Shown here: piece after piece, positions 1,835 through 59,177 of the stretch
Numbering within the stretch: position 1 is the first letter of the stretch
Layout: every line of letters starts with the position of its first letter
Assembly (NCBI RefSeq): GCF_002087085.1
Contig: NZ_MWQY01000005.1
Coordinates: 124,001-188,000 of the forward strand
Source of the DNA: Marispirochaeta aestuarii
GTDB lineage: Bacteria > Spirochaetota > Spirochaetia > JC444 > Marispirochaetaceae
Length of the DNA stretch: 64,000 nucleotides
Direction: 5' to 3'
The notes under the pieces: model-generated
The model's input: the letters and a program-made list of their open reading frames with translations, nothing else
Database searches by the model: none
Told to the model about the DNA's origin: nothing
Program-made: the position numbers and the translations under genes

Positions 1835-1958
1835 CTCTTTTTTCCATATCCTGAGTCGTCAGGATTTTCCGCGATCCTCAACTCTTGTTACGACAAGCGT
1901 ATGCGGGCACTATAAAAATTTTCCTTCCTGACTATGGAAAAAATACCACGCTTTTAGA
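1835..1958 (+). repeat. Dispersed intergenic element, copy 1
   Basis: This 124-base stretch lies between the convergent ends of proB and the RNA methyltransferase gene. It aligns without gaps to 59118-58995 on the opposite strand, with about 95 of 124 identical positions counted by eye, including a 21-base identical run at 1930-1950. Arms at 1838-1848 and 1933-1943 are perfect 11-base inverted repeats. An inner hairpin CTTGT-TACG-ACAAG lies at 1883-1896. No convincing ORF is present. Whether it is a decayed mobile element or a structured RNA cannot be decided from two copies. Confidence 0.75.
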
Positions 1959-1970
1959 GGTGCCCGGATG

Positions 1971-3062
1971 TTATCCGAGGGAGAGAAGGGCGAGGCTTTC
2001 GAGGTGATAGGTCTGGGGGAACATGTCAAAGGCTTCCAGAAGTTCAATCCTGTAACCCGCTCTTTCAAAGGCCTTCAGGTCGCGCATGAGGCTTGCGGGA
2101 TTGCATGATACGTAGGCTACCAGCGGTATATGAAGTTCCGCCAGCAGGGGAGCCTCTTTTTTCACTCCCTTGCGGGGCGGGTCGAGGATCAGAACATCGG
2201 TTGCAGCAGCCTCCCTTCTGAGAGCTCCGTAGACAGACGCGACCTTCCCCCTGGAGTAGTGCAGACGTCTGTTATTTCCTGCCGCTTCCCGGGCGGCTGC
2301 GACAGCTTCGGCGGATACGTCCCAGCCGCTGATCGATTCGGCTGCGTCTGACAGAGGCAGGGAGAGGTTACCGTCTCCGCAGAACAGATCAAAAACCCTC
2401 GGTTCCGGGTAATACTTGAGAATATGTCCTCGCAGCCGCTTTTTCAGCAGCCTGTTTCCCCCGGTGTTGGTCTGCCTGAAGGCTTCGTCCGTTCCGGCGG
2501 TGAGAATGCGGACCCCGCCGTCTTCGTTTCTCAGTTCAAAACGTTCCGGCAGCTTCCCGATCTCCTGTTGTCCCAGGGGAGGGTCCCTCAGCCAGTCCCT
2601 TAAGGGCGCTTCGGCAATAAGACAGTCTTTCACCTGAATCAGATCCCTGCTTCCTGCGGCGTAATACCCGATCTTTTGATCCCTGCGGTGCAGGCTTATG
2701 CGGCAGCGATACTCCAGTTCAGAGGGGGAAGGAAAGACAGATATTTCCCGGGGAGAATTCGAAAGATCTTTTTCTGCCATGGATGCAAGAATCTCTTTTT
2801 TGGCAGTGACCTGGGCCGGATATGTAATATGCTGCCACTGGCATCCGCCGCAGCTGCCGAACCAGGGGCAGGGAGCTTCGCTGCGAAAGGGCGATGCTTC
2901 CAGAATGCTGGTTATTTTTCCTCTGCGGTAGGAGGGTTTAAGCTCGATCTCTTCGATTTCCACGAGATCCTGCGGTGCGCTGAAGGGTATGAACCAGACC
3001 AGCCCGTCTTCCCGTGCCAGACCGTCCCCGCCGTAGACCAGTTTTTCTATGCGTAGAGGCAT
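1971..3062 (-). CDS. Class I SAM-dependent RNA (uracil-5-)methyltransferase, TrmA/RlmD family
   Basis: The protein probably methylates C5 of a uridine in rRNA or tRNA using S-adenosylmethionine. Its 363 residues start with a TRAM-like beta domain (about 1-50). A cysteine cluster follows (CPWFGSCGGC at about residue 64, and a further Cys in VKDCLIAE), which in this family binds a 4Fe-4S cluster. The C-terminal Rossmann methyltransferase has FDLFCGDGNLSLPL (SAM binding), LDPPRKG and YVSCNP with the catalytic cysteine. The C-terminal HLESLALL motif is also typical. The exact target base cannot be read from sequence, so no gene symbol is given. Confidence 0.9.
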   Translation of the reverse strand: MPLRIEKLVYGGDGLAREDGLVWFIPFSAPQDLVEIEEIELKPSYRRGKITSILEASPFRSEAPCPWFGSCGGCQWQHITYPAQVTAKKEILASMAEKDLSNSPREISVFPSPSELEYRCRISLHRRDQKIGYYAAGSRDLIQVKDCLIAEAPLRDWLRDPPLGQQEIGKLPERFELRNEDGGVRILTAGTDEAFRQTNTGGNRLLKKRLRGHILKYYPEPRVFDLFCGDGNLSLPLSDAAESISGWDVSAEAVAAAREAAGNNRRLHYSRGKVASVYGALRREAAATDVLILDPPRKGVKKEAPLLAELHIPLVAYVSCNPASLMRDLKAFERAGYRIELLEAFDMFPQTYHLESLALLSLG

Positions 3063-58936: not shown

Positions 58937-58952
58937 GTTTTTCTAAAAACTG

Positions 58953-58980
58953 AATCCCGGCACATAGGTGCCGGGATTTT
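58953..58980 (+). terminator. Terminator after tctC
   Basis: AATCCCGGCAC (58953-58963) and GTGCCGGGATT (58968-58978) form a perfect 11-bp stem with an ATAG loop. Only a short T-run follows, so it may be leaky and pass some transcription into tctBA. Confidence 0.85.
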
Positions 58981-58994
58981 ATTGTATGGGAAAT

Positions 58995-59118
58995 TCTAAA
59001 AACGTGGTATTTTTTCCATAGTCAAGGATGCAGGATTTGTTAGCCCCCGGAAACCCTTGTGATAACAAGAGTCGGGGGCCGTGGAAAATCTTGACGAAGC
59101 AGAATATGTGGAAAAGAG
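58995..59118 (-). repeat. Dispersed intergenic element, copy 2
   Basis: This stretch lies between tctC and tctB and is the inverted second copy of the element at 1835-1958, sharing the 21-base core at 59003-59023. In this copy the inner hairpin CTTGT-TATC-ACAAG is enclosed by a GC clamp (GCCCCCG with CGGGGGC, 59042-59079). TTCTAAAA and TTTTAGAA flank it at about 58994 and 59123 and could be short terminal inverted repeats. The gene gap is 241 bases; the rest holds only the tctB ribosome-binding site. Confidence 0.75.
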
Positions 59119-59177
59119 CAGATTTTAGAAATGCCCTATAATGACACCAGCTCAAACAGAAAAGAGGGAGCAGTACA

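Follow-up and report, generated by a model that had tools for sequence, protein, structure and literature searches.

The 149-bp repeat that occurs twice in the window, i.e. the stretch of 64,000 nucleotides of the Marispirochaeta aestuarii genome analysed here, is with high confidence a non-autonomous DNA transposon, namely a type II MITE, most likely moved by an IS5-family transposase that is encoded elsewhere. Its sequence family is new, but elements of this kind are well known, and neither a novel RNA nor a novel control site is involved. Two 16-bp terminal inverted repeats enclose a non-coding, imperfectly palindromic interior of about 117 bp. According to the mechanism proposed here, a DDE transposase of the IS5 family, supplied from elsewhere, would recognise these repeats and move the element, and insertion would take place at AT-rich, mostly intergenic sites with duplication of 4 bp.

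A preliminary description of this DNA had reported a 124-base intergenic repeat at positions 1835-1958 (+) and 58995-59118 (-), alignable without gaps with 95 of 124 positions identical. Realignment gave exactly the same count, and the 21-base run of full identity (1930-1950 and 59003-59023 on the opposite strand) was found as described. The repeat itself is therefore real; its boundaries were set too short, as the 124 bases are the inner part of the 149-bp unit, whose length was set by alignment of the copies with their flanks. Over the full unit, 109 of 149 positions are identical between the two copies, and the terminal inverted repeats are recognisable. In agreement with the earlier reading, no gene was assigned to either copy.

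Copy 1 (1817-1965, +) is located between two convergent genes, as had been proposed: a proB-like (glutamate-5-kinase-like) gene (681-1790, +; domains AA_kinase and PUA) and an RNA uracil-methyltransferase-like gene (1971-3062, -). Its left terminal inverted repeat (GGTCGCCTTTAATAAC, 1817-1832, +) deviates from the consensus GGGCACCTCTAAAAAC at four positions, and its right one (GCTTTTAGAGGTGCCC, 1950-1965, +) shows one mismatch. The adjacent bases GGAA (1813-1816, +) and GGAT (1966-1969, +) agree in three of four positions and are possible remnants of a target duplication. Copy 2 (58988-59136, -) lies between tctC and tctB, again as described before, with three mismatches each in the left (GGGCATTTCTAAAATC, 59121-59136, -) and the right (GTTTTTAGAATTTCCC, 58988-59003, -) terminal inverted repeat. 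The same interval harbours a strong terminator-like hairpin (58952-58979) directly after tctC and 8 bases from the MITE. Copies 1 and 2 differ from the consensus of the window genome at 20 and 24 positions, respectively; in a comparison of 21 full-length copies, both rank with the more degraded ones. Each is an old insertion in a decayed state, and no role is evident for either. A clean 4-bp duplication was kept at neither of them, which counts against the interpretation as a MITE.

BLAST detected the repeat at 34 places in the window genome, most of them full-length query matches with 74-88% identity, which is far beyond chance. With a covariance model trained on 28 full-length copies, 38 distinct places on both strands were found in this genome (G000; 4.21 Mb, a draft of 78 contigs with an estimated completeness of 97%), 27 places, likewise on both strands, in a second genome of the same genus (G002), and two weak ones in a genome of another genus of the family (G003). 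The same model revealed no copies in a third genome of the genus (G001) or in the remaining genomes of a sample of 60 genomes of the class, and the exact 22-base core had no match in the collection of genomes of other species, from which close relatives may be missing. The repeat family is thus restricted to two of the three genomes searched in the genus and, weakly, to one other genus of the family. In the consensus, the unit is bounded by the 16-bp terminal inverted repeats GGGCACCTCTAAAAAC...GTTTTTAGAGGTGCCC, which are perfect there and in several copies. The preliminary description had suggested a genome-wide search, in which many intergenic copies with conserved ends would speak for a MITE- or REP-like repeat, and copies of precisely this kind were detected. 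Annotators can consequently label about 38 stretches of this genome rather than look for RNAs there. In another genome of the class (G036), three loci (L057, L061 and L064) hold short elements of 80-193 bp whose filling differs but whose 16-bp ends are the same; they seem to represent a MITE family of their own within this IS group.

Traces of transposition were found at the flanks of the copies. In both genomes together, the flanking 4 bp were identical in 15 of 44 entries in comparison to 2.2 expected from shuffled partners (none of 2000 shuffles was as high), a count that is approximate because the list has double entries for three G002 copies, and one of the ends is interrupted in eight G002 copies. 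No enrichment was seen among the 44 entries for duplication lengths of 2, 3 or 5-9 bp, and a single sharp length of 4 bp is what a transposase leaves behind. Most of the duplicated sites are rich in A and T (TTAT, TTAA, ATAA, GTAT and others).

Furthermore, empty sites were detected in both directions. The neighbours of copy 1 are adjacent in G002, where the site lacks the element and only 23 bp separate the matched flanks, versus 194 bp here. Conversely, a G002 copy (C3:335879-336027; L132:580-728) splits a reading frame with ATAA on each side. The frame is designated uridine-kinase-like on the basis of a Walker-type motif and general resemblance. Its counterpart in G000 is uninterrupted and can be aligned without gaps to the G002 flanks after one ATAA is dropped. 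Among the copies compared, none had flanks in common between G000 and G002; the orthologous site of copy 2 was not located in G001-G003. Empty sites in both directions together with the lack of common flanks demonstrate that the element has moved and is no fixed RNA gene.

The candidate mobiliser was found in G002. This genome possesses seven IS5-family transposase genes with 100% identity, situated in elements whose ends carry the MITE repeat. By pairing of end sequences, two of these elements were recognised as plain units of 1,239 bp; the others have the same ends, and in some of them an insertion of the IS3 or IS110 type breaks the element. The transposase comprises 339 amino acids and was assigned to IS5 by NCBIfam NF033581 (275 bits, cut-off 140); its Pfam domains are DUF772 and DDE_Tnp_1. 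The outer 16 bp of the IS match the MITE ends; the IS ends are GGGCACCTCTAAAAACTAGAGG and GGGCACCTCTAAATACTACTC, and the latter agrees with the MITE end GGGCACCTCTAAAAACTACTC in 20 of 21 positions. Another family of the class has a transposase that is 88% identical, and here the same ends are present without a mismatch, together with a TTAT duplication. Similar ends also occur on more distant IS5 elements from other phyla: the NCBI-annotated IS5 transposases of Aliarcobacter and of a Cereibacter plasmid (53% and 49% identity) belong to elements with the ends GGGTACCTCTAAAAA and GGGCACCTCGAAAAA and the 4-bp duplications ATAT and TGCG, respectively. Since ends and duplication agree in G002, the 88% relative, Aliarcobacter and Cereibacter, they appear to be characteristic of this branch of IS5.

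From these sequence comparisons it is probable that the MITE is mobilised in trans by an IS5 transposase, and we infer that the mover was the G002 enzyme or a close relative of it that the present assembly lacks. In the 78-contig draft of the window genome, no IS5 transposase of the G002 type was found at E ≤ 1, which has to be counted against the MITE interpretation. A partner IS in the same genome would lend support without being a requirement, as it may be lost or unassembled, and IS copies often collapse in draft assemblies. Apart from the ends, no similarity between the MITE and the G002 IS was seen, and no IS-derived interior was recognisable; a simple deletion in this IS in recent times is therefore not the origin of the MITE. 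In viral contigs, neither a related transposase nor an exact 18-base end was present. The 21-base IS-like end matched a single Oscillospiraceae MAG and nothing else, and the matches lie close to the ends of contigs. In this MAG (RGIG4139, L101-L108), contigs start or stop near sequences carrying GGGCACCTCTAAAAACTACTC, which are probably another IS5-type element that collapsed in the assembly.

The MITE might also belong to another transposase family, for example of the IS4 or IS1634 type, with ends that merely resemble those of IS5. The sole DDE_Tnp_1 match in the window genome is indeed an open reading frame of 306 amino acids on C43, which we take to be IS4-like. However, no matching terminal repeat was present at this locus within three mismatches, and the resident transposase was therefore rejected as mobiliser, whereas the IS5 element of G002 agrees with the MITE in ends, duplication length and host genus. 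In addition, none of the ends published for the IS4 subgroups and for the families derived from them starts with GGGC, and duplications of the IS4 family proper comprise 7-13 bp (PMC2266710, Table 1), which makes partners of the IS4 type unlikely. The probability of a partner from another family is hence regarded as minimal.

The 149-bp unit is an imperfect palindrome over its full length, with a self-complementarity of 58-72% in six copies versus about 50% in shuffled sequences, and the majority consensus folds into one long hairpin of about -55 kcal/mol. Such a fold would also be expected if the repeat were an independent non-coding RNA gene or a structured regulatory RNA present in many copies. 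Pair-preserving double changes (37 versus 8.5 cells) exceeded shuffled and slid controls, which could likewise indicate an RNA; as a purely passive filler would not need them, they are counted against the MITE interpretation. Many of these changes trace to a G002 subfamily (L125, L126, L134 and L135), in which the central hairpin AACTCTTG...CAAGAGTT was exchanged as a whole for another one, TCCTGCACCAAA...TTTGGTGCAGGA, while the arms remained unchanged; this exchange, too, could speak for an RNA. However, pairing is built into any full-length palindrome, and most of the paired changes are confined to few subfamilies; where single copies have mismatches in their outer repeats, these are mostly left unpaired and uncompensated. 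Moreover, the sites compared are not common to the two genomes of the genus, exact 4-bp duplications mark the copies as insertions, and one copy resides inside a coding gene, the uridine-kinase-like gene of G002. Rfam yielded no match at the gathering threshold or at E ≤ 1, in line with the earlier statement that no known riboswitch or REP family was recognisable, and a riboswitch or other known RNA was rejected on this basis. An RNA gene is thus extremely unlikely. Of the earlier alternative of a dispersed element or an independent RNA, the first half is borne out by the many intergenic copies, conserved ends and target duplication; the second half is not supported in view of the empty Rfam result, the lack of conservation of the compared sites and the mostly uncompensated mismatches in the terminal repeats.

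The distribution of changes fits a palindrome that is kept in the founders of subfamilies and drifts in dead copies, and it calls for no RNA function. A somewhat speculative and on the whole unlikely extension of the MITE interpretation is that the full-length hairpin itself is selected in copies that still transpose, and that the paired changes, including the exchange of the central hairpin, maintain the palindrome between subfamilies. In that case, folding into a cruciform or a single-strand hairpin would be part of the amplification of the element.

A long imperfect palindrome could as well be a REP/ERIC/BOX-like repeat that was domesticated as a terminator or as a stabiliser of mRNA 3'-ends and is kept for its benefit in intergenic regions. 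Most copies are intergenic, and among 22 copies, whose gene contexts were obtained with a rough ORF caller and are only indicative, seven lie between convergent genes, and several copies are found within 30 bp of a stop codon. The contexts are nevertheless mixed, since the remaining copies are between codirectional (10) or divergent (5) genes. Neither window copy contains a GC-rich hairpin followed by a T run, as in an intrinsic terminator, or any other terminator- or promoter-like pattern, and the hairpin after tctC lies outside copy 2; a terminator or promoter role was rejected for this reason. Such a role could also arise after insertion, and it leaves the terminal repeats with their 4-bp duplication unexplained. 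Retention of the repeat as a domesticated terminator or stabiliser is therefore considered very unlikely.

In its features, the 149-bp repeat conforms to type II MITEs as defined for prokaryotes (PMC10969869). Like these, it is shorter than 500 bp, possesses terminal inverted repeats within the range of 4-30 bp, is mostly intergenic and forms a hairpin; direct repeats are found in younger copies, and only the ends resemble an autonomous IS. What distinguishes it is the new sequence family, the near-palindrome over the full length and the exchangeable central hairpin. With the IS5 family (NF033581, transpos_IS5_4) it shares ends of the GGG[C/T]ACCTC type and 4-bp duplications, as present in the G002 IS, the 88% relative, Aliarcobacter and Cereibacter, but it contains neither a transposase nor a recognisable IS-derived interior. 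QMITE2 of Coxiella burnetii (PMC10969869) is also a multi-copy element of similar size (~190 bp) and a target for an IS1111-type element; it differs in its longer repeats (23-29 bp) and duplications of 7-9 bp. The Chunjie MITE of Geobacter uraniireducens (PMC10969869), likened here by description and not by sequence, is dispersed in some 38 copies with conserved terminal repeats and can interrupt genes; its length, however, is 235 bp. In the literature, which was covered in part, nothing relevant on MITEs in spirochaetes and no paper on this repeat family was found. The assignment as a MITE makes an ordinary transposon family with defined ends out of a seemingly mysterious repeat.

Beside the IS5 elements, G002 harbours an IS110-family element of 1,347 bp (Transposase_20 and DEDD_Tnp_IS110), which repeatedly uses the end repeats of the MITE and of IS5 as insertion target. 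The insertions share one position in the end repeat, TTTAGAG^GTGCCC, and affect eight or more MITEs as well as several copies of IS5 (L070, L071, L072, L076, L089, L098-L100, L120-L122, L124, L127, L128, L131, L133 and L137); the IS110 copies, checked over 500 bases of flank, are identical. IS1111 relatives, IS4321/IS5075, are already known to target transposon ends, according to work cited in PMC11187229. Taken together, the IS, the MITE and an IS110-type IS landing on both form a compact system, in which MITE amplification and targeting directed by a guide RNA may be studied together. The non-coding region of 241 bases upstream in the IS110 element holds AGGGCACC and TTTAGAG, short matches obtained by k-mer search with no estimate of chance occurrence. 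Of the two sides of the insertion point, one is matched by the complement of a given strand and the other by the sequence of that strand itself. Such an arrangement would be expected of a target-guiding RNA (PMC11187229, PMC11208160).
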